A stretch of DNA of 26,743 nt, taken from positions 1-26,743 of the forward strand of contig JAQUPC010000013.1 of the NCBI GenBank assembly GCA_028716765.1, given 5' to 3'. Under the pieces are notes generated by a model, which saw only the letters and a program-made list of their open reading frames with translations, did not search any database and was not told the origin of the DNA. How positions within the stretch are numbered: the stretch's first letter is position 1; every line of letters starts with the position of its first letter. Origin of the DNA: Alphaproteobacteria bacterium. Lineage in GTDB: Bacteria > Pseudomonadota > Alphaproteobacteria > UBA9219. Below are positions 689 to 24,706 of the stretch, one piece after another. The translations under genes and the position numbers were made by a program.

Positions 689-725
689 CCGATCCCCGGT
701 CCCCGGTCCCCGACCCCCGATCCCT
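689..725. repeat. GGGGATC-type degenerate tandem repeat, right inverted copy
   Basis: About five units of GATCCCC or GGTCCCC, inverted relative to 263-292, lie just upstream of the four-helix-bundle gene. The outer end reaches into the TAG stop codon of dsbA (724-726), so the insertion point seems to be exactly the dsbA 3' end. Confidence 0.7.
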
Positions 726-1341
726 ATTTTTTCTCCGCCAAAAGACGGTCGATCACGGCGGTAAACTCTTCCAGCTTGCGTGCGCCGACCAGTTTTTCCT
801 TTCCGTCGTTGAAAACGAACGTCGGCGTGGCGTCGATGCTGTATTTCCGTTGCGCTTCGGTGCGTTCGGCCACCAGCGCGTCCAGCATCTTCGAGTCCTT
901 GATGCAGGCCAAGGCCTTTTCCTCGGGAAGTCCGCCAAGCTTGGCATACTGCACGATCGTTTTTTCCGGATCCTTGCTTAAGGTCCACTGTTGGAGGTTT
1001 TTGAAAAGCACGTTGATAAACGGATAATACTGTTCGGCCGGCATGCAGCGCGCCACGGCGGCCGCCTTCAAAGCGACGCCGTCCAGCGGGAAGTCGTGGA
1101 AAATGAACTTTACCTTGCCGGTTTCGACATACCGTTTTTCGATTTGAGGCAAAATATCGACGGTGAACTCGGCGCAGTGCGAGCAGGTAAGAGAGGCGAA
1201 TTCCTGAATAGTCACGGGCGCGTCTTTCTTGCCCAGAACGTGGTCAGGGAGAGAGGCCTCCCCGGCGTGCAAACCGGAAGTGCCTGAAAACAAAAGAACA
1301 ACGGCGGCCATCAGGGCCCAAGAAAGCTTTGTCATGCGCAT
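724..1341 (-). CDS. DsbA-family periplasmic thiol:disulfide oxidoreductase
   Basis: The 205-aa protein has an N-terminal signal peptide (hydrophobic residues about 8-22, likely cleaved after LHAGEA). The active site CSHC is at 53-56 in the context SLTCSHCAEF, with the cis-proline loop ATPT at 171-174. This fits the DsbA/BdbD class of thioredoxin-fold oxidases, which introduce or shuffle disulfides in exported proteins. It has no embedded DsbB-like partner. In alphaproteobacteria a gene of this type is commonly found between the DUF721 gene and smc; that order holds here apart from two insertions. The stop codon overlaps the inverted repeat of the adjacent four-helix-bundle cassette. Confidence 0.9.
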   Translation of the reverse strand: MRMTKLSWALMAAVVLLFSGTSGLHAGEASLPDHVLGKKDAPVTIQEFASLTCSHCAEFTVDILPQIEKRYVETGKVKFIFHDFPLDGVALKAAAVARCMPAEQYYPFINVLFKNLQQWTLSKDPEKTIVQYAKLGGLPEEKALACIKDSKMLDALVAERTEAQRKYSIDATPTFVFNDGKEKLVGARKLEEFTAVIDRLLAEKK

Positions 1342-1404: not shown

Positions 1405-4400
1405 TCAAGGCTTTGGCATGCGCCTAAGCGGGTCCCGGCGCAAAAAGCGCTGGGAGTTCTGGAACATGTGGGCGTCCGGAAGGCCCCGAATATAAAGCAT
1501 TTTTGCGGGCACGCAGACTTCAAAGACACCCATTTCCGAGAACTGCGCATAATTGGGCAAATACGTCGCGTGATCGCCGCAAATGATCAAATGGGCCTGA
1601 GCAATATGCTTTCCGCAACTTTCCGGTTTGTCAGAGATAGACCGGGCAGCATCGGCGACTTTTTGCAGTTCATCCGTTAATTCGGGAAAGAGAGTCAGGA
1701 AGGGAGAGCCGCTATCGGGCCTCTCTTCCATATATTTTTGTATAAGGCCTAATTCATTGCGTTCGATGCCGATGATATCCGTTGTCAAATCGCCGGTGCC
1801 AAGCAGAACTTTAACGTAAACATCCTCGTCTTTTCCGCTTTCTATGCAGGCCTTGATAAGATCGAAAGCGTTTCTAGCCCCGATTTTCGTTTCAATCGTT
1901 GGGCAAATTTGCGGGATGATATATGTTTTCGAACGGGATGATTCTAAAACGATCTTGCTGTCGCCGATAATTTCAATGGCGCGTGCAATATCTTCGGGGG
2001 TTTCGGCGCGAGGAACGGCAAATCGCACCGAGCTGTTTTCATGCAGGAACAAGGGCAAGGCGTAGGCGATTCCCTTGACTTGCGCCTGATAAACTTCTGG
2101 TGCTTTGTGGGCAAGGGCAAAACCCCTGAGGTCGTCAAGGCCATATTTCTTTTTGAGAGCTTCGTTTTGTTCCGGCGATAGCAATTGATCCGGCTTAAAA
2201 TCCATCAAACGGACGGTAATGCTGTTGCGTTCACAGTTATGATAAATCTTTCTCTGATATAAGATTAGGTTTTTAAGATACATTTCCGTGCAATAGTACA
2301 GATCCAATAAATTTTGTTTCGAAGGATCTTCGAGGGCCTTAAATAAAATAGCCCGATTGGGTTCCTCGAGATAATAATTTTCGACGCGGCTCAATCCGAT
2401 AGGGTCTCGCCCGACTTCCATATCTTCCGGCTGATCGGCCTGAACGGAAAAGTCGAGGTTGGAAGGCATTTCAAATCCGGAAAGTTCAGCTACTTCCGGC
2501 CTGCCCAATACCTCGCGGGCATAATATACAAATTCCCAGTAGAGTGGCGGCAAATCAGGCAAAACAATCTCAGGCCTTCCGGCGTAAAGGCGGTTGCTGT
2601 TCGTATCGATTGTGGCCCAATCGCCGCTGCGCAACACAAAGGGTTTTTCGCCGTCGCAAGAAAGAAACGGAGTCGAGCCGTCGCGCGTGATTTCAAGGCC
2701 AATTTGTTCCGCTTGTTCTTCTTCTATGAGCAAGCCCGCGAGGCCTTTTGATCGCACAATCTGGCCAAAGTGGATGGCGGCTTTGCCGAGCACGATGATG
2801 CCTTGCGCACAGGATATCTGCCCGAATGAATCCGGCCCCGGGTTTTGCGCTACAAGTATGACGGGGGTTGTTTCGTCTGTGGCGCGAAGCCGCACGATGT
2901 CGTCCTGCGAAAAGGCGAGAAGACCGGCCATCGTTTTCCCCACGGAAGCGGGGAAAAGGACGGATGCCATTTCTTTATCCGCTTCAGAAACCGTGAGACG
3001 ATATGGCAGCGTCATCGCCTCCGGGTCGAGGCTAAGATAATTCTTACAGAATGCTTTTTCAGCCTTTTCTCTTTCGGGATCGTTCGCTTCGCTGCGCCGG
3101 CAGATTTTTTTGTATTTCTCAAAATCCTCCAGCACGCGGCTAAGCGTAACAGGTTCAGTCTCGCCGCCGGTTCCCAACATCACGTCTTCACTGCTTTTGA
3201 GGCGAGCCGCGAGGCGGGAAATCATGCTGATCATTTCTGGTGCAGTGGGGGCCCTCATTCCTTCTATGAGATCAAAGTATTCCATCCAGCGCAGCTGCTT
3301 AACCGCACTTTCAATCTCGTTTTGGCGTGCGCGCGAGTTCACTAATATTGCAGGTGGCAAAAGAGTATTATCGTTTCTATCGCCTGCGTTCGCCAGGTCA
3401 TCGTGACGGTTGGCCAAATCGCTCATGTTGCCAATGAAATTCGCGAGAAAAAGATCGTGAACAACAACAGCGAAAGGGTCTTCGCGCGTATGTTCACGGA
3501 TTATAACCCCCGAAAAATTATGGGGCGAGCAGGCCATCGTGCGGAAATATTTCGCGAAATCCAGCTTGGGATCGACAAATTCTTCCCGGTTATCCGGATT
3601 ATCATCCACCAGAAGAACCTTGGGTTTGAGCGCGGGCTTGTCATCAGAAATTTTCAGGGCCTCAGAGGTGCCGTCAAGGAACGATGACGGAAAAGCCGTG
3701 CGGCGAAGAAGTGGCTCAATCATAACGGGTTGGGTCACGCCCTCAATGTCTTCAAAACACGTGTTTTCTTTTGTCCATGCGATTCTTCTGTTGATTTCAT
3801 CGATCCCGGCGGCGGAGAAGAAAACGATCTTGGGCAGATCTCTGCCGGCCCATGCCTCTTCAGGGCGGTTGACGGCAAAAGCCATGAAAGACATAACGTC
3901 GGCACTTAGCCGGGCCAGAATTTTCGTTATGTCCAGGCCCTCATCATTCATAATATCGATATAAAGAACATCAAAGGGGTTGTCGGAAAGCCGGCCTCCC
4001 CTAAGGTAGTTGCGAAACGCGCCGGGCGAAAAGCTTTCGGCTATAAGCCCGATGCGCCCGGCTTTTTTCACGGAAAGATCCCTGCCGATTTCATTGTCGT
4101 CGACGAAAATGACCTTTCTTTTTTGCGCGGGCCTGTTTTCATTTCTCTCCTCTTTGGCGAGGGCATCAAAAGGATCGCGGAGTCCGAAAGCGTTTCTCAT
4201 GTGTTGCAGAATGATAAGCTTTGAAACTGCGGTTGCGTTTTCAAAAACGGTGTGTTCGCGCGTCCAGTTCATCAGGCTGTAAGTGTCGGCAAAAACGGAA
4301 CACAAAATCACTTGCGGAATCGCAGGAAGATCTGCCGGGAATTCGGATTGCCGTTCTTTGATGGCAGCGCTTAAGGCCAGCAAAACGTCGCGGGGATCGG

Positions 4401-4599
4401 TTCCGTCGTTGGAATAAACGTCGACAAGGATCACGTCGAAATCATGAACAGCCAGCAGCCCACGCTTGATCCGGCGGAGCAAGACCCCCGGTGGAAGGCT
4501 GTCGGGGCGGGCGCCGCAAGCTTTCAAATTCCAGCAAAAAGGCTCGAGAAATTCCTCGTCGTCATCGACAATTAAAACTTTTAACTTCGGTTCGTTCAT
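1405..4599 (-). CDS. Triple receiver-domain protein fused to a PEP-utilising (PPDK/PtsI-like) module
   Basis: The 1,064-aa protein has three CheY-like segments: about 6-140 (LIVDDDEEF, likely phospho-acceptor D60 in VILVD), 160-300 (VIFVDDN, D215 in VLYID) and 326-460 (VLLVDDN, D382 in VVVHD). A linker leads to a swivelling PEP-domain-like region at about 545-680: FPASVGKTMAG, then QGIIVLGKAAIHFGQIVRSK with H610 where PPDK and enzyme I carry the phospho-histidine, then GDWATIDTNSNRLYAG. The C-terminus (about 725-1050) resembles the PEP-binding barrel: DPIGLSRVE, ITVRLMD, VLLGTGDLTTD and LIICGDHATYL with C1007 at the place of the catalytic cysteine. No ATP-grasp domain is visible. Function is unknown; a PEP-linked phosphotransfer regulator is an inference. 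GC appears lower than in neighbouring housekeeping genes, and the gene separates dciA from dsbA, so it may have been acquired. Confidence 0.82.
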   Translation of the reverse strand: MNEPKLKVLIVDDDEEFLEPFCWNLKACGARPDSLPPGVLLRRIKRGLLAVHDFDVILVDVYSNDGTDPRDVLLALSAAIKERQSEFPADLPAIPQVILCSVFADTYSLMNWTREHTVFENATAVSKLIILQHMRNAFGLRDPFDALAKEERNENRPAQKRKVIFVDDNEIGRDLSVKKAGRIGLIAESFSPGAFRNYLRGGRLSDNPFDVLYIDIMNDEGLDITKILARLSADVMSFMAFAVNRPEEAWAGRDLPKIVFFSAAGIDEINRRIAWTKENTCFEDIEGVTQPVMIEPLLRRTAFPSSFLDGTSEALKISDDKPALKPKVLLVDDNPDNREEFVDPKLDFAKYFRTMACSPHNFSGVIIREHTREDPFAVVVHDLFLANFIGNMSDLANRHDDLANAGDRNDNTLLPPAILVNSRARQNEIESAVKQLRWMEYFDLIEGMRAPTAPEMISMISRLAARLKSSEDVMLGTGGETEPVTLSRVLEDFEKYKKICRRSEANDPEREKAEKAFCKNYLSLDPEAMTLPYRLTVSEADKEMASVLFPASVGKTMAGLLAFSQDDIVRLRATDETTPVILVAQNPGPDSFGQISCAQGIIVLGKAAIHFGQIVRSKGLAGLLIEEEQAEQIGLEITRDGSTPFLSCDGEKPFVLRSGDWATIDTNSNRLYAGRPEIVLPDLPPLYWEFVYYAREVLGRPEVAELSGFEMPSNLDFSVQADQPEDMEVGRDPIGLSRVENYYLEEPNRAILFKALEDPSKQNLLDLYYCTEMYLKNLILYQRKIYHNCERNSITVRLMDFKPDQLLSPEQNEALKKKYGLDDLRGFALAHKAPEVYQAQVKGIAYALPLFLHENSSVRFAVPRAETPEDIARAIEIIGDSKIVLESSRSKTYIIPQICPTIETKIGARNAFDLIKACIESGKDEDVYVKVLLGTGDLTTDIIGIERNELGLIQKYMEERPDSGSPFLTLFPELTDELQKVADAARSISDKPESCGKHIAQAHLIICGDHATYLPNYAQFSEMGVFEVCVPAKMLYIRGLPDAHMFQNSQRFLRRDPLRRMPKP

Positions 4600-4703
4600 A
4601 AATTTTTTCCGAATATGCGTTCTTGCAAAAAACCTGTAAATCGCTGCGCAGGATAACAGCCGGAAGTGTTTCAGCCAACGGGAATACGTTCAAATCTTTA
4701 TTA

Positions 4704-5201
4704 TTATTGGCCGGAAGGCCTGTCTTGCCTGACCGCTGCGCCAAATTCTTCCAGTGCAGCCCGAAGGTCATTGTTTTCTATATCTTTCGTGGCCTCCGTT
4801 AACCTTACCGTCTGATCCGGTACGGCGGCAGGAGAAGCCTCTTTTGCGATGGAAGCCGGGCCGTAATACGTCTCGAACACGATGCGCGAAATGACCTCAT
4901 AGCCGAAAAAGGCGGCAATGCGCTGCCGTATCTGATCCGTGCGGAAGGAAAACTCCATCGTCAAGCCCTGCGGAAGACGGATATGCAAAACGCCGTCCTT
5001 CCGCTGGCCCTGCGCCAATTTCTCCCCCGCTGTCTTGCCCTGCGGAAACGATATTTTGACCGGCGTCGTGACTTGGGCGTACTCTTCGCCCACGATTTCA
5101 CGCCAATGATTCAGCAGGGCGGCATATAGCCCCCAGTCCTTGCCGATGGCCTGGCGGGCCACGTTGTCCACGGTGGCGGCTATGGAGCGCGGGAGAAGCA
5201 T
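4704..5201 (-). CDS. DUF721 / DciA-like protein
   Basis: About 165 aa. The N-terminal half, with IGKDWGLYAALLNHWREIVGE followed by the strands VTTPVKISFP, GVLHIRLPQG and MEFSFRTDQIRQRIAAFFGYEVISRI, matches the DUF721 family, which includes DciA, a loader of the replicative helicase DnaB. The C-terminal 50 residues are low in conserved features. I prefer the ATG at 5199-5201 because homologues begin close to this point; an in-frame TTG at 5261 is an alternative. No clear ribosome site precedes either. Its ATG overlaps the divergent mutY ATG within the tetranucleotide CATG. Divergence from mutY and position upstream of dsbA and smc are typical for alphaproteobacteria. Confidence 0.8.
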   Translation of the reverse strand: MLLPRSIAATVDNVARQAIGKDWGLYAALLNHWREIVGEEYAQVTTPVKISFPQGKTAGEKLAQGQRKDGVLHIRLPQGLTMEFSFRTDQIRQRIAAFFGYEVISRIVFETYYGPASIAKEASPAAVPDQTVRLTEATKDIENNDLRAALEEFGAAVRQDRPSGQ

Positions 5202-6272
5202 GAAGCGAATTGTGCAGCAGAGAACTGTCGAGTGCAACAAGCTCCTGCGCTGGTACGACAAAAACCGCCGCGTTCTGCCTTGGCGGGCCTTGCCGGGGAA
5301 AAAGCCTGATCCTTATCAAGTTTGGCTGTCCGAGATGATGCTCCAGCAAACGACGGTGACGGCTGTAGGGCCGTATTTCCGGAAATTTTTAGCTCGTTGG
5401 CCAACGGTTCAGGCCTTGGCCAAGGCCAAACAAGATGACGTGATGCGCCTTTGGGCGGGGCTAGGGTATTACCGCCGCGCCCGTTTTCTGCATGAGGCGG
5501 CGCGGGTGGTGTGCCGTGATTACAAAGGCAGCTTTCCCGTTACGGAAAAGGAACTCCGGTCTTTGCCGGGCTGCGGCCCTTATACGGCGGCGGCGATAGC
5601 GGCCATCGCTTTCGATCGGCGCGCCAACGTCGTGGACGGCAACGTCGAGCGCGTCATGGCGCGCTTGTTCGCGGTCAAAACGCCGTTGCCGAAGGCGAGG
5701 CAGAAGCTGCGCGCTTTGGCTGAAAAGCTGTTGCCGTCCGAACGCTATGGCGATTACGCCCAAGCCTTGATGGACCTCGGCGCCATGATTTGCACGCCGC
5801 GCAATCCGAAATGCGGTCTTTGCCCGTTGGCCGGGGCATGTGTGGCCAACGCCAAAGGCATCGCGGAAGGCTTGCCGCGCCGCCGGCCTTCAAAAACAAA
5901 GCCGGTGCGCCGGGCCATCGCGTTTTATCTTACGAACGGCCGGGGGGCTGTTTTGCTTCGCAAGCGGCCCGCCAAAGGGCTTTTGGCAGGCATGATGGAG
6001 GTTCCTTCCAGCGAATGGCGAGCCGGGCCCATGCCCGAATTATCCGGCGTGCGGCTTGAAGCTCCGGCTAAAGTGCGCTGGCGGCTATTGCCCGGCACGA
6101 TTCGCCATGCCTTTTCGCATTTTGATCTTGAATTAAAGGTCGCAGTTGCCACAAGCTTGGGTTCGTGCGCGGGGAAATGGGTGATGCCGTCCGGACTGGA
6201 CCGGGAGGCGTTGCCAAGCGTCATGCGCAAGATCGTCGAATATGGAATAAAGAACGGAAAACGGGGATCGTC

Positions 6273-12705: not shown

Positions 12706-13158
12706 TTATTTGGGATCTCTTGCCGGGCCAGTCTTTCCTGACGGGTTTTGCTTTGATGGGAGAGCAGGCCTCAAATTAAATAATTTATGTATCTCCCTAT
12801 CGAGCGGCGATTTTGATGCGGCGCCCTCGATAAAACCAAGAGGCTTACCGCCTTTGAAAAAGACGAAGCAGGGAATTGCGCGTACTGTAAAGCTCGATGT
12901 CACCTTGGGGTTTTGATCGTTGATGGTCATCGATGTGTTTTCATCCGTATCAATCGTGAATATTCTCATTTGGTTTTCAGGATATTCTCTGGCTAGTTCT
13001 TCAACAACGGGCAGCATGGCGTTGCAAGGGGCCGCCCAATTTGCCCGGAAAAAGAGAAGCACGGGAACTTCAGATTGTAGCACTTTCTCTTCAAAGTCCG
13101 CGTCCGTGATTGAATATTTTTCAATGAAACTCTGCGGCTTTGGTTGATATTGTTTCAT
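12706..13158 (-). CDS. Thioredoxin-fold protein with a single active-site cysteine
   Basis: The 150-aa protein is thioredoxin-like: VPVLLFFRANWAAPCNAMLPVVEELA, and AIPCFVFFKGGKPLGF containing the cis-proline. The usual WCGPC is replaced by WAAPC (41-45), so the first cysteine is alanine and only C45 remains. A classical dithiol reductase is therefore unlikely; a monothiol, chaperone-like or trapping role is possible. An additional cysteine follows the cis-proline. There is no signal peptide. AGGAGG precedes the start with good spacing. It follows a second thioredoxin-like gene by 61 bases in the same direction, suggesting an operon. Confidence 0.82.
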   Translation of the reverse strand: MKQYQPKPQSFIEKYSITDADFEEKVLQSEVPVLLFFRANWAAPCNAMLPVVEELAREYPENQMRIFTIDTDENTSMTINDQNPKVTSSFTVRAIPCFVFFKGGKPLGFIEGAASKSPLDREIHKLFNLRPALPSKQNPSGKTGPARDPK

Positions 13159-13219: not shown

Positions 13220-13657
13220 TTATGGTTTGGGAATCAAGCCGGTTTCCCCGAGGGGTGAATGCGGTCTGTTTCCGCTATGGCAATTTTCGCGCAGAACCTT
13301 ATCCAGGTCGTTTTGCAGTCTACTTTGGGGAACGGAGCCAAAAGTTTGTTTTTGAACTTTTCCTTCACAAAAATATATGATGGTGGGGAGCGTATTTGTT
13401 TTATATTTCTCTGCGGTTAAGGGCTCTTCGTCGATATTCATTATGCAAAACTTTGTATTGTTCCTTTGTGCGGTGTCCCTCGCAAATTCTTCGTAGGTGG
13501 GCATGATGTCGCGGCACCAACTGCACCACCAAGCATAAAAAAGAACGGCAACGACGTCCCCTTTGTGTTCGAGCACTCGTTCTTTGAAATCTTCATCCGT
13601 AATCGCGGCTACTCTGTTTTTCGGCTCTTGAACTTTTGCAAGCAGGTCTGTTGTCAT
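13220..13657 (-). CDS. Thioredoxin-fold protein with CSWC active site
   Basis: The 145-aa protein has the active site CSWC at 45-48 in YAWWCSWCRDIMPTYEEFA and the cis-proline loop TLPTIIYFCEGK. It is cytoplasmic by appearance, with no signal peptide. The dithiol motif is an unusual variant of CGPC. The tail after about residue 125 (CHSGNRPHSPLGETGLIPKP) is unlike thioredoxin and may derive from inserted sequence. It lies upstream of the monothiol paralogue, so the pair may act together, one as reductase and the other as a single-cysteine partner; that is an inference. GAGG lies about 9 bases before the ATG. Confidence 0.82.
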   Translation of the reverse strand: MTTDLLAKVQEPKNRVAAITDEDFKERVLEHKGDVVAVLFYAWWCSWCRDIMPTYEEFARDTAQRNNTKFCIMNIDEEPLTAEKYKTNTLPTIIYFCEGKVQKQTFGSVPQSRLQNDLDKVLRENCHSGNRPHSPLGETGLIPKP

Positions 13658-13845: not shown

Positions 13846-15363
13846 ATGATCATGAGGCTGTTTTCTCCGGCTCCGGCCAGCAAGGACGTCCGGAAGTTCA
13901 AGGACCCCGAAGCCGCGGTGGCCTATGTCCGGCAAATCTATGACGCCAACACGGCGTTTCTGCGGGACCGTTTTCAGTGCCTCGCCAAAGGCGTGTGCCC
14001 GACGGAAAAAGTGATTGCGTGCTATCCCTACGTCGCGATCACGACGCAGCAACCTACGCGCATCGACACGCGGCTTTCCTACGGCTTCGTGCCGGGGCCG
14101 GGCCGTTACAGCACGACGCTGACCCGTCCCGATATTTTCGCGCGCTACTACGCCGATCAGTTCGAGCAGCTGCTGAAAAACCATCAGGTGCCGCTTGAAG
14201 TCGGCGTCAGCGACATCCCGATCCCCCTTCACTTCGCCTTTCATGACGGCATCTACGTCGAGGGCAAGCTGGAGCATGAGCAGATCGAGCATATGCGGCA
14301 ATATTTTACCTTGCCCTATCTTTCCATGATGGACGACGCGATCGCGAACGGCGTATGGCAGCCGGGGCCGGGGAATGACAAGCCGCTTGCGCTTTTCACC
14401 GCGCCGCGCGTCGATTATTCGCTGAACCGGCTCCGCCATTACACGGGCACCGATCCGCAGCATTTCCAGAACTTCGTCATTTTCACGAACTACGGCTTCT
14501 ATGTGGACGAGTTCGTCCGCATGGGAACGGCGATCATGAATCAGGAGCCGAACCTTCTCATTCAGGACGGTCATCAATATACGCATCTGGCAGGGCCGGG
14601 CGGCATGATGATCCCGAACGCGGGTCTTGGCGCCCCGGAAATGACGGGAAATACCGAGCCCTCGGGCCCGATGCCGCAAATGCCCGCCTATCATCTTGCG
14701 CGCGAAGACCGCAACGGCATCACGCTCATCAACATCGGCGTGGGGCCGAGCAACGCGCGCAACATATCCGATCACATCGCCGTGCTGCGTCCGAACGCGT
14801 GGCTCATGCTCGGCCATTGCGCCGGGCTGCGCGAAGCGCAGAGGCTCGGCGATTACGTTCTGGCTCACGGCTACGTGCGCGACGATCATGTGCTGGACAA
14901 GGAGCTTCCTCTCTGGGTGCCGGTTCCGGCGCTGGCGGAAGTGCAGAAAGCGCTGGAGACGGTGGTGGGCGACGTGACGGGCCGCGCCGGTTACGAACTC
15001 AAGTCCGTGATGCGGACCGGCACCGTGGTGACGACCGACAACCGCAATTGGGAAATCGGCGGTTTTGCCGAACTGGTCACGCGCTTCAACCAAAGCCGCG
15101 CCATCGCCCTTGATATGGAATCTGCGGTGATCGCGGCCAACGGGTTCCGGTTCCGCGTCCCCTACGGTACGTTGCTATGCGTTTCGGACCGCCCGCTGCA
15201 CGGCGAGATCAAGCTGCCCGGCATGGCCAACAGCTTTTACCGCCATATGGTCGATCAACATCTGCTGATCGGCGTAAAGGCGATGGAGCTTATGCGCGAC
15301 AACACCGCCGAGACGCTGCACAGCCGCAAGCTGCGCAGCTTCGCCGAGACGGCGTTTCAGTAG
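13846..15363 (+). CDS. amn: AMP nucleosidase (first copy)
   Basis: The 505-aa enzyme hydrolyses AMP to adenine and ribose 5-phosphate. The N-terminal AMN domain (about 1-170) is followed by the nucleoside-phosphorylase-like catalytic domain with LINIGVGPSNARNISDHIAVLRP (about 297), MLGHCAGLR, LRTGTVV-like MRTGTVVTTDNRNWE and ALDMESAVIAANGFRFRVPYGTLLCVSDRPLHGE (from about 421). AAGGTGAG precedes the start by about 9 bases; a second in-frame ATG lies 6 bases later. Length is close to the family's usual ~480-500. A diverged second copy lies at 22782-24293. Repeats begin directly after its TAG stop. Confidence 0.95.
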   Translation: MIMRLFSPAPASKDVRKFKDPEAAVAYVRQIYDANTAFLRDRFQCLAKGVCPTEKVIACYPYVAITTQQPTRIDTRLSYGFVPGPGRYSTTLTRPDIFARYYADQFEQLLKNHQVPLEVGVSDIPIPLHFAFHDGIYVEGKLEHEQIEHMRQYFTLPYLSMMDDAIANGVWQPGPGNDKPLALFTAPRVDYSLNRLRHYTGTDPQHFQNFVIFTNYGFYVDEFVRMGTAIMNQEPNLLIQDGHQYTHLAGPGGMMIPNAGLGAPEMTGNTEPSGPMPQMPAYHLAREDRNGITLINIGVGPSNARNISDHIAVLRPNAWLMLGHCAGLREAQRLGDYVLAHGYVRDDHVLDKELPLWVPVPALAEVQKALETVVGDVTGRAGYELKSVMRTGTVVTTDNRNWEIGGFAELVTRFNQSRAIALDMESAVIAANGFRFRVPYGTLLCVSDRPLHGEIKLPGMANSFYRHMVDQHLLIGVKAMELMRDNTAETLHSRKLRSFAETAFQ

Positions 15364-16809: not shown

Positions 16810-17121
16810 TTACGCACTCAGAGCATAATTTAATTCACATTCTGGCGCGTTGTCGCCATCAGTTTTAGGGTTAAAATCCCCTGCACGCTTGTCCCATAAA
16901 TCAAAATAGTGCTGTGGGGCTTTTTCTATACCAGAGAACGGCTCCCCATTGTTTTTTTCGCTTTCTTTTGCTTCAAGCATAAGCGCAAGGCGTAAACGCA
17001 AGTTTAGCGTCTCCAAATCTGGGGCTTGGGCTCCAATGTCATATTCTAAGCATTGTGCTACCCAAAGATCATCCTCTTTGAATGCGATAACTCTGATTTT
17101 AGTTCCTGTGGTCATTCCCAT
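16810..17121 (-). CDS. Small IS cargo protein, HicB-like fold
   Basis: The 103-aa product begins with KIRVIAFKEDDLWVAQCLEYDIGAQAPDLETLNLRL, the pattern of a HicB-type partial RNase H fold (strand–DG–WVAQCLEYD–strand–helix). A less conserved C-terminal part with YFDLWDKRAGDF follows. There is no evident ribbon-helix-helix domain. The second ATG (17113-17115) has GGGGA at better spacing than the first. It is coupled to the next gene and lies 102 bases downstream of the transposase. An antitoxin role is inference from fold and pairing. Confidence 0.62.
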   Translation of the reverse strand: MGMTTGTKIRVIAFKEDDLWVAQCLEYDIGAQAPDLETLNLRLRLALMLEAKESEKNNGEPFSGIEKAPQHYFDLWDKRAGDFNPKTDGDNAPECELNYALSA

Positions 17122-17223: not shown

Positions 17224-18069
17224 TTATTGTTTATTTTCATAGGCTTCCGATTCATCAACCATCCGAACAATATCTTCCATTGACCAGAGCGTTTCGGACA
17301 CGCTAGCCGCCATTGCAGGGCTAACGCGCAACGTCTGGTGAATGCGAGCGAAATTGTAGTGCATGAAATAGATCGCCAGCGCGTAAAAATGATTTTCAAT
17401 CTTCTTTGAAAACGCATTTGTCAGGCGCGTAAAGCGGCGATTGCCCATGCGGATATTTAGGTTCTGGCGTTCGGCAAAGCTTGTACTTACCTGCTTAGGA
17501 TCGGGATTGCCTCTTATTACCTCCTTGCGAGTGCCTACGCATTCGGCGGGGCTATAACGCTTCTGTCCCTCTGTGTTTTCGCCGTAAATCTTCACCAGCA
17601 TGGCATAATCAACGTCTGTGCCGAATGCCGCCTCTACAGCCTCAATATAAGCCTTGTGGCCGTCACTGGTAAGCTGGACGCGGTTTGCAAGGCGGCTGGC
17701 AAGGTCAGAAATGAAAGCCTTGGCACACTCGCCGTCGCGGTTGCCGAGGTAGAAAGATGGGACAAGCTTTGTGTCGGCATCAATAGCTGTCCACGTCCAA
17801 ACGTCGCCAGCCTCGCCGCGCTTATCTTCCGGCACGTTCTTGGCCTTGGCATAAACGAACGACCAGATTTCATCGACCTGTAGGCGCTTGCAGGGAAGAT
17901 CGCGCAGGTTCTTATCCATGTAGTCAGCGCAAGCCTGTCCAGCATCAACTAGAAGCTTTGCAACGGTGTTTTTGCTGGCCCCTGTAAGACGAGTGATTGA
18001 ACGGATCGACATTCCCTCGACCATCATACCGAGGATTTGTGCGCGTTTCTGTGTGGTCAGCCTGTTCAT
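17224..18069 (-). CDS. IS1-family transposase, single open reading frame
   Basis: The 281-aa protein has an N-terminal helix-turn-helix (RAQILGMMVEGMSIRSITRLTGASKNTVAKLLVDAG, 9-44) and DDE catalytic segments: LQVDEIWSFVYAK, VQLTSDGHKAYIEAVE and TSFAERQNLNIRMGNRRFTRLTNAFSKKIENHFYAL. The C-terminus NFARIHQTLRVSPAMAASV is the family signature. Unlike E. coli IS1, no frameshift is needed. The ATG is at 18067-18069; a long AT-rich region upstream should hold the promoter. It appears intact. Confidence 0.92.
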   Translation of the reverse strand: MNRLTTQKRAQILGMMVEGMSIRSITRLTGASKNTVAKLLVDAGQACADYMDKNLRDLPCKRLQVDEIWSFVYAKAKNVPEDKRGEAGDVWTWTAIDADTKLVPSFYLGNRDGECAKAFISDLASRLANRVQLTSDGHKAYIEAVEAAFGTDVDYAMLVKIYGENTEGQKRYSPAECVGTRKEVIRGNPDPKQVSTSFAERQNLNIRMGNRRFTRLTNAFSKKIENHFYALAIYFMHYNFARIHQTLRVSPAMAASVSETLWSMEDIVRMVDESEAYENKQ

Positions 18070-22781: not shown

Positions 22782-24293
22782 ATGAAAAGCAAACCGTTGT
22801 TGCCGCTGGACGAGAACAGGAAAAATTTTACAAATGCCGAGGACGCCGTTTCCTACGTTCAGAAAATATTCCACGATGGCAGGCTTCATCTTCAGGAAAA
22901 CTGGCAAAGGTTTGTCGAAGGCAAACAGTTGCGGCACAAAGTGTCCGCCTATTATCCCTATGTGGCCATCACAGTCGACTGGAAACATGTCGGGCGTCAA
23001 CCCAAGCGCATGTCGCACGGGTTTGTCAGCTATCCCGGGCGTCATGTCGCGACGCTGACCCGGCCATTTTTCTTCGAAAAATACTACAAGACGCAACTCG
23101 CATGGCTGCTCAAGAACCACAAGGTTCCCATTGAAGTGGGCGTCAGCTCATGCCCGATTCCGATTGACTATGCGTTCGTGAACGGTCTGCCCGGCGAGGA
23201 AACGTTGACGCTGGAGCGGTACAGGAAGAAAAGCGAATATTTCGATCTCATCAATCTTCGTCACGAAGAAGACAACGCGGGTTCCGGGCATATGCTGGCT
23301 TTTGCCGGCGGCAACTATTCGCTTTCCCTTTTTTCCGCGCCCCACGTGGATTCAAGTTTGCGCCGTCTTGTGCACTACACCGGAACGGACCCGAAGGATT
23401 TTCAACGCTTTGTCATTTTCACGAATTTCGACGATTATGTAATCGATTTCAAACGCACGGCGCTGGAGATTATGAGTCCCGATGACGATCCGGCCGTCGC
23501 CGCATACCGGAGGCAGTATACGCGATTGGTCGGGCCGGGAGGATGCATAACGTATAACGCCAACAACGGCGACAAGAATCCCGAAAATCATCCGGTTTGC
23601 CGGATATCGCAAATGCCAACCTATCATTTATGCCGCGATGACGGGGCCGGCATTACGCTAATCAACATCGGCGTCGGCCCTTCGAACGCAAAAAACATAA
23701 CCGACCATCTTGCCGTGCTGCGTCCCGACGCCACGCTTATGCTGGGGCATGCCGCGGGGTTGAGCCCGGAATTGGAAATCGGCGATTACATCCTCGCGCA
23801 GGCTTATTTGCGCCGCGACAAAATCCTGGACGACAAGGTTCCGACCGATGATCCCGTGCCGCCGTTGTCGGAAGTGCAACAGGCCATCGAGGCGGCGGTC
23901 AGGCAGATCACCAAACGCAACCGGAAAACGGTCAAAACCATCCTCCGCACCGGCACGGTCATTTGCGAACTTGACCGCAACTGGGAGCGCGGCGATATAA
24001 AGAAACTGGAGAGATCGATTAACGCCAGCCGCGCCATCGCGCTCGATATGGAATCCGGCACGATCGCCGCCAACTGCTTTCGTTGGTGCGTTCCCTACGG
24101 CACTTTGTTGATCAATTCCGACATGCCGTTGATCGGACGACCGAAAATGCCCGGGCCAGCCGGTCTGTTTTTTCAGCGTCAGGTAAGCCGGCATATGCAG
24201 ATCGGCATAAGAGCTATGGAAATTTTACGCAAAGACCCGAATTTGCACAGCCGCAAGCTGAAACCGCCGCTTTTCGGCCGCGCGTTTTTATGA
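22782..24293 (+). CDS. amn: AMP nucleosidase (second copy)
   Basis: The 503-aa protein is a clear paralogue of the gene at 13846: the same AMN domain opening (ENRKNFTNAEDAVSYVQKIF), then HYTGTDPKDFQRFVIFTNF, LINIGVGPSNAKNITDHLAVLRPDATLMLGHAAGLS, ILRTGTVICELDRNWE and ALDMESGTIAANCFRWCVPYGTLL. The catalytic-domain motifs are kept in both copies, so both are probably active; the intervening loops are diverged, which argues for an old duplication or separate acquisition. AGGA lies about 9 bases before the ATG. The C-terminus LHSRKLKPP mirrors that of the first copy. Confidence 0.93.
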   Translation: MKSKPLLPLDENRKNFTNAEDAVSYVQKIFHDGRLHLQENWQRFVEGKQLRHKVSAYYPYVAITVDWKHVGRQPKRMSHGFVSYPGRHVATLTRPFFFEKYYKTQLAWLLKNHKVPIEVGVSSCPIPIDYAFVNGLPGEETLTLERYRKKSEYFDLINLRHEEDNAGSGHMLAFAGGNYSLSLFSAPHVDSSLRRLVHYTGTDPKDFQRFVIFTNFDDYVIDFKRTALEIMSPDDDPAVAAYRRQYTRLVGPGGCITYNANNGDKNPENHPVCRISQMPTYHLCRDDGAGITLINIGVGPSNAKNITDHLAVLRPDATLMLGHAAGLSPELEIGDYILAQAYLRRDKILDDKVPTDDPVPPLSEVQQAIEAAVRQITKRNRKTVKTILRTGTVICELDRNWERGDIKKLERSINASRAIALDMESGTIAANCFRWCVPYGTLLINSDMPLIGRPKMPGPAGLFFQRQVSRHMQIGIRAMEILRKDPNLHSRKLKPPLFGRAFL

Positions 24294-24307: not shown

Positions 24308-24706
24308 CTACGTATTCTGTTGAATGGCCCGCTTGGCCGCTTCGGCGAGAAAGCCGCTTCGTGTCATGCCGCGCTTGTGAGCCGTCACGTCGATGGCTTC
24401 CACCAAGCCTTCGTCGAGGCTGATGTTCAGCCGTACGGCCTTGCCGGGCAGGTCGGCGCGCACGAGAATGCGTCCGGCCTCCTTAACATCGGGGTCGCGT
24501 TCGATTTTATCGAGCGGGCGCTGTTTGGGAATGGCATCGCCGTCCTCGATCATCAACAAAAGATGTCCGCGCAAGGCTTCCTCGGCGTTGCGGGCCGCTT
24601 CTTCCATCGTCTTGCCGAAGCTGGTGCAGCCGGGCAGGTCGGGAAAAAAGACTCCAAAGCCCTTTTTCGCGCGTTCGATGATGGCGGGAAAGTATTGGGT
24701 GGTCAT
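24308..24706 (-). CDS. hicB: HicB-family antitoxin with ribbon-helix-helix C-terminus
   Basis: The 132-aa protein opens with the HicB fold YFPAIIERAKKGFGVFFPDLPGCTSFGKTMEEAARNAEEAL. It ends with a ribbon-helix-helix type DNA-binding segment, VRLNISLDEGLVEAIDVTAHKRGMTRSGFLAEAAKRAI. HicB neutralises HicA and represses the operon. The gene follows hicA by 4 bases. It is unrelated in sequence to the HicB-like IS cargo protein. Confidence 0.9.
   Translation of the reverse strand: MTTQYFPAIIERAKKGFGVFFPDLPGCTSFGKTMEEAARNAEEALRGHLLLMIEDGDAIPKQRPLDKIERDPDVKEAGRILVRADLPGKAVRLNISLDEGLVEAIDVTAHKRGMTRSGFLAEAAKRAIQQNT

Follow-up and report, generated by a model that had tools for sequence, protein, structure and literature searches.

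The gene and its domain order

The window analysed here, the whole 26,743-nucleotide stretch of contig JAQUPC010000013.1 from an alphaproteobacterium of the UBA9219 lineage, carries at positions 1405-4599 of its minus strand a gene that, as read from the list of open reading frames (ORFs), encodes a single protein of 1064 residues, labelled P0001. Three receiver (REC) domains are followed by a linker, a phosphohistidine swivel domain and a phosphoenolpyruvate (PEP)-binding barrel, all three related to the corresponding parts of pyruvate phosphate dikinase (PPDK), and no ATP-grasp domain was detected. The components of the gene are as follows.

1405-4599, minus strand: whole gene, 1064 residues, in the order REC-REC-REC-linker-swivel-barrel
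4174-4587, minus strand: REC1, residues 5-142, with D13, D14, D60, S101 and K127, a complete receiver set
3676-4122, minus strand: REC2, residues 160-308, with D167, D168, D215 and S262; conserved Lys absent
3214-3624, minus strand: REC3, residues 326-462, with D332, D333, D382 and S422; conserved Lys absent
2965-3165, minus strand: linker, residues 479-545, corresponding to PPDK from residue ~337 onwards
2560-2964, minus strand: phosphohistidine swivel domain, residues 546-680, assigned by profile and fold comparison
2770-2772, minus strand: codon of His610, the phospho-acceptor position by alignment conservation
1465-2472, minus strand: PEP-binding barrel, residues 710-1045, with R738, R797, E903, D937 and C1007; G936 replaces the Asn of PPDK
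1579-1581, minus strand: codon of Cys1007, the catalytic acid position by alignment conservation

Sequence and fold comparison together establish this order. An earlier sequence-only reading of the locus had recognized three REC-like segments with acceptor aspartates D60, D215 and D382, which lie at those places in the translation, and had assigned H610 to a PPDK-like swivel and C1007 to a barrel. Both residues were confirmed, and the barrel family, the PPDK profile and the fold agree with their assignment. Of the three Pfam families bearing on these domains, PF02896 matched the barrel at residues 714-1032 (E=2.2e-7, above its cut-off), whereas neither PF00072 (receiver) nor PF00391 (swivel) matched P0001 at E≤10. 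TIGR01828, the PPDK profile, covers residues 541-982 (E=2.2e-8), but its 32.6 bits fall far short of the equivalog cut-off (843). The barrel, moreover, folds like that of PPDK, and by both profile and fold the swivel and barrel are closer to PPDK than to enzyme I (EI). Thus, P0001 shares with PPDK (TIGR01828; PDB 1kbl and 5jvj) the linker, the swivel, the barrel, their order and the catalytic residues, but differs in carrying receivers where PPDK has its N-terminal ATP-grasp domain. The absence of ATP-grasp noted in the sequence-only reading is upheld by the Pfam scan, in which PF01326 found no match in P0001 at E≤10, and by the point at which PPDK homology begins, residue 309 of PPDK by profile and 337 by fold. 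Because the retained homology starts in the PPDK linker, the nucleotide-binding part is the exchanged piece, and its place appears to have been taken by a receiver.

The order of strands and helices in the receivers appears to be that of PF00072, and they share with it the acidic pair, the acceptor Asp and the Ser, and REC1 also the Lys. They are, however, long and divergent, fall below the Pfam cut-off and precede an output that is not DNA-binding. A sister protein, P0003, does match PF00072 (E=0.0011), although at 19.5 bits it too lies below the cut-off of 30.2. PF00391 matches some relatives, exceeding its cut-off only in L175. Structure searches hardly probed REC1 and REC2, so that absences from the fold lists carry no weight. 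Identity with EI or with PtsP (EI-Ntr) was rejected on the lack of the HPr-binding domain PF05524, which was unmatched in P0001 at E≤10 and was not reported in the relatives scanned; nor did the Pfam scans report a GAF domain, or any further acceptor-type domain in the family proteins scanned.

The sequence-only reading had found this order unfamiliar, which holds in part. Proteins that combine REC with PPDK are recorded from Bacteroides and Heimdallarchaeota (PMC5847659), and among the effectors listed for receivers that lack the Asp is PPDK (PMC4395418). Joining a receiver to PPDK sequence is thus already known, and the new element here is the REC in place of ATP-grasp. As far as these brief descriptions go, the present proteins are set apart by undetected ATP-grasp, on which the passages are silent, by retention of the REC Asp and by their occurrence in Micavibrio-like bacteria. 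No description of the ATP-grasp-less form or of this family was found in the open-licence literature searched, mostly judged from listings.

Spread and conservation of the family

A full-length search of 5.8 billion proteins (7995 candidates scored) with P0001 found only itself. When residues 541-1064 were used, the search recovered P0002 (708 residues, 34% identity), and an alignment-based search added P0003 (732 residues), a fragment (P0004) and five EI-type proteins. Both P0002 and P0003 have the same swivel and barrel, preceded by a single receiver. The receiver-swivel-barrel architecture is therefore found elsewhere, with the domain order maintained at 15-31% identity to P0001, whereas three receivers were present only in the window protein among the members seen.

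This divergent family occurs in two orders of Micavibrio-like Alphaproteobacteria. A 20-row family alignment (A6) was assembled, leaving out two contig-cut PPDKs with PF01326 (L178 and L180), a 937-residue frame taken as PPDK by its length (L179), the fragment P0004, a broken frame (L122) and a REC-less relative (L127). With the A6 profile, 142 genomes from the order that includes G046 (Micavibrio sp. UBA2137, contig L076) were searched. Among the matches listed, 19 of the 142 genomes carry family members; in 16 of these the members start before model position 10, reach the end of the barrel and score 425-936 bits, and three more (G492, G541 and G427) hold partial members. The background, again among the matches listed, consists of PPDK-length frames of about 900 residues that start near position 158 and score at most 265 bits. 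Separation from this background is imperfect, as two genes of G492 score close to it (L227 with 290 bits and L228, which opens with a receiver-like segment, with 254 bits); the tree described below nevertheless places both inside the family. In the order of G001, where a weaker profile (A1) was combined with PF02896, 2 of 33 genomes (G001 and G029) have REC-bearing members.

Further afield, 398 genomes were sampled from the phylum to which G046 belongs (presumably Pseudomonadota). With a threshold of E≤1e-60 and at most two candidates scored per genome, settings under which short or divergent copies may be overlooked, the only full-length match was in G046, itself in the first set. The other phylum matches listed start at position 144 at the earliest, in frames of 852-1230 residues, as for PPDK. 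A class sample of 385 genomes (profile A5, again at most two candidates scored per genome) gave mainly PPDK-length frames, with some shorter frames left unchecked. A tblastn search of plasmids returned PPDK-like matches at 21-24% identity among the matches listed (20 of 30 records), pattern scans of genome contigs and viral contigs for the family gained nothing, and a PHROGs search gave no match below E 0.03.

In a 43-row tree a single branch (support 100/99) separates the family (27 rows) from 11 PPDK and 5 EI rows, labelled as such from the length of the frame together with either PF02896 or the profile score; several long branches were flagged by the tree program. Within the family, P0001 clusters with P0002 and P0003 (100/97). 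EI_L092 (wrong frame), L122, PPDK_L129 and PPDK_L130 were left out. An ordinary or broken PPDK was rejected as the identity of P0001, since the relatives share the same start and domain order.

Six swivel-barrel columns (H, R, R, E, D and C) are ones that we take to be catalytic in PPDK and EI, following the residue roles of Clostridium symbiosum PPDK. In A6 they are occupied by H in 19, R in 19, R in 20, E in 20, D in 20 and C in 19 of the 20 rows, and only 28 of the 501 swivel-barrel columns reach 90% conservation. A second alignment has 28 rows, of which five lack a receiver; there the corresponding counts are 28, 26, 28, 28, 28 and 27, and all six columns are among the 24 of 501 that reach 90% (hypergeometric p ~6e-9, a value that is descriptive only, as rows such as L211/L212 and L215/L173 are related). 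The acceptor Asp of the receiver, one of three REC3 columns conserved to at least 90% in A6, is kept in 19/20 rows there and in all 23 REC-bearing rows of the larger alignment, and the second acidic residue of the receiver pair in 18/20 and 21/23, respectively.

Several members depart from the common plan. Four REC-less relatives of 500-562 residues retain the barrel (L120:1946-3484, L121:6851-8353, L123:5048-6736 and L127:502-2157); such shorter forms occur in G001, G007 and G029. In both G001 and G029 a single REC-less copy accompanies a single REC-bearing one, and the two may form a pair. A REC-bearing member in L122 is split into two overlapping frames (3812-4639 and 4626-5987), with the break in the swivel region, which may reflect a sequencing error, a pseudogene or a frameshift. 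The 910-residue product of L222:2493-5225 (the same gene as L164) has an extra N-terminal region before the receiver that resembles a HAD-type phosphatase by eye; no such domain was matched by Pfam in L164.

Candidate routes of phosphoryl transfer

The reading that we favour, tentatively and with rather less than even confidence, is that P0001 is a PPDK-derived phosphotransferase in which receivers replace ATP-grasp and the phosphoryl group would pass from PEP to His610 and then to a receiver Asp. PEP would bind the barrel and phosphorylate His610 on the swivel, with release of pyruvate. The swivel would then turn as it does in PPDK, docking on a receiver instead of the nucleotide site, and the phosphoryl group would be handed to the Asp of either the complete REC1 (D60) or REC3, which lies beside the swivel (D382). 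Phosphorylation of the receivers would thus follow the PEP/pyruvate state, and phosphate could in turn move between them and histidine kinases or phosphotransfer proteins. We infer PEP turnover, the passage of phosphate from His to Asp and its direction, and every downstream partner; a PEP-His-Asp relay would need no unseen acceptor. That two-component signalling is tied to phosphoryl transfer from PEP, as the sequence-only reading proposed, is plausible. More tentative still is the proposal that PEP directly charges the receivers within one polypeptide, so that central metabolism would supply a two-component phosphorelay with neither a histidine kinase nor HPr taking part, the three receivers offering several outlets or a phosphate store.

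A number of observations weigh against the favoured PEP-His-Asp reading. The conserved Lys, present as Lys127 in REC1, is absent from REC2 and REC3 of P0001, and the first acid of the receiver pair is Gln in nine of the 20 A6 rows and Ser in another. The REC regions are of low confidence in the structure model. The existence of REC-less relatives indicates that receivers are not always needed. Position 936, which is Asn in 14/20 A6 rows, 21/28 rows of the second alignment and 13 PPDK rows, is Gly in P0001 and Thr in P0002 and P0003. Finally, the swivel His of one gene (L165/L226) is placed differently in two alignments, and that of the REC-less L120 and L121 likewise depends on the alignment (A2 or the 28-row version).

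The main rival, which we consider rather unlikely, is that the protein is a response regulator whose receivers are phosphorylated by kinases, gating the transfer of phosphate from PEP through His610 to a separate acceptor protein or metabolite. The full set of receiver residues in REC1 is consistent with this, as are the kinase genes found near some members: a HisKA-HATPase-REC kinase lies 64 nt upstream of the family gene on the same strand in L223, a REC-HATPase protein adjoins it in L217 and a kinase is convergent with it in L221. Signalling genes, however, directly adjoin the family gene at only these 3 of 20 REC-bearing loci with readable neighbours, a count that does not include L214, L216 and L229, where the ORF picker lost the family frame. 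As HisKA is matched 14-36 times in each of six carrier genomes, this adjacency is only weakly above chance. Neighbour clustering, furthermore, revealed no recurrent acceptor gene beside the family; it mainly recovered pairwise shared synteny (for example L211/L212, L162/L220 and L214/L215), as well as a glycosyltransferase cluster, found in L220, L224 and L228 but not next to the family gene. The sequence-only reading had proposed a search for an associated histidine kinase or HPr-like gene; at the window locus itself neither was seen beside the gene in the ORF list, read by eye.

HPr bears on a related question. Five of 10 carrier genomes have a match to PF00381; none was found in the other five (G478, G510, G046, G479 and G507), although draft genomes may be incomplete. 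Because HPr was not found in half of the carriers, an EI-to-HPr role is unlikely as the general function of the family.

It could also be argued that the protein is a pseudoenzyme or a PEP sensor, binding PEP without turnover and signalling through a change of shape, a possibility for which the sequence-only reading had left room and which we judge improbable. The change of Asn to Gly at position 936, and to Thr in the two nearest sisters, would fit such a role, as would the divergent loop around His610 and the replacement of Cys by Ser and of Arg by Lys in L225. The loop motif IHFGQ is, however, the window version of a variable segment around a conserved His. As the swivel His, the barrel residues and the REC Asp are each retained in at least 19/20 rows of A6, pseudoenzyme status is unlikely for the family as a whole, and was rejected as the principal interpretation on this conservation. 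Some doubt stays on the activity of the window copy itself, because the Asn beside its barrel Asp is Gly.

Quite improbable, in our estimate, is a role as a regulatory partner of the true PPDK of the cell, joined through the barrel and adjusting PPDK under receiver control. The barrel is the usual dimer contact of PPDK, that of P0001 has the PPDK-like fold, and a carrier such as G046 has, in addition, a PPDK-length match (912 residues); a purely regulatory subunit, however, would not need to keep six catalytic residues. That the frame arose by chance or as a chimera without such domains, as the unmatched PF00072 and PF00391 and the solitary full-length search result might suggest, is hardly credible in view of P0002, P0003, the members found across genomes and the PPDK-like fold.

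If, as the favoured PEP-His-Asp relay proposes, PEP charges a receiver through the swivelling His, phosphotransfer of the phosphotransferase system (PTS) type and of the two-component type would meet in one protein. The result would be a metabolite-fed phosphorelay, in which the moving domain of PPDK has been given a new target through replacement of the domain at the far end of its swing. Under a different mechanism, too, the family is a conserved receiver output in Micavibrio-like bacteria.

The locus and other features of the window

Two genes flank that of P0001 on the same strand.

724-1341, minus strand: DsbA-like gene, 63 nt downstream, named from its translation
4704-5261, minus strand: DUF721-like gene, 104 nt upstream, start codon uncertain

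In 18 of 30 DUF721 loci from relatives, DsbA was present on the fetched piece, 78-836 nt away as measured between match ends and with no 3.2-kb insert; on the fetched pieces of the other 12 DsbA was not found. The G+C content at third codon positions (GC3) of the gene ranges from 0.53 to 0.58 across its segments and lies below the 0.69-0.79 of seven other window genes, a difference which suggests that the gene arrived late at the locus. A chimeric gene was rejected, as GC3 is even across it.

Elsewhere in the window, two AMP nucleosidase-like paralogues, the second named by eye, lie about 7.4 kb apart on the plus strand (13846-15363 and 22782-24293). The first of them shares 74% identity with its counterpart on the nearest contig, L001, labelled uncultured proteobacterium; L010, L012 and L013, among the next best, are Micavibrio, which places the source of the window among Micavibrio-like Alphaproteobacteria. 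Several further genes were recognized by eye on the minus strand: two adjacent thioredoxin-like genes (12706-13158 and 13220-13657, with the motifs AAPC and CSWC), an IS1-like transposase (17224-18069) and two HicB-like antitoxin frames (16810-17121 and 24308-24706).
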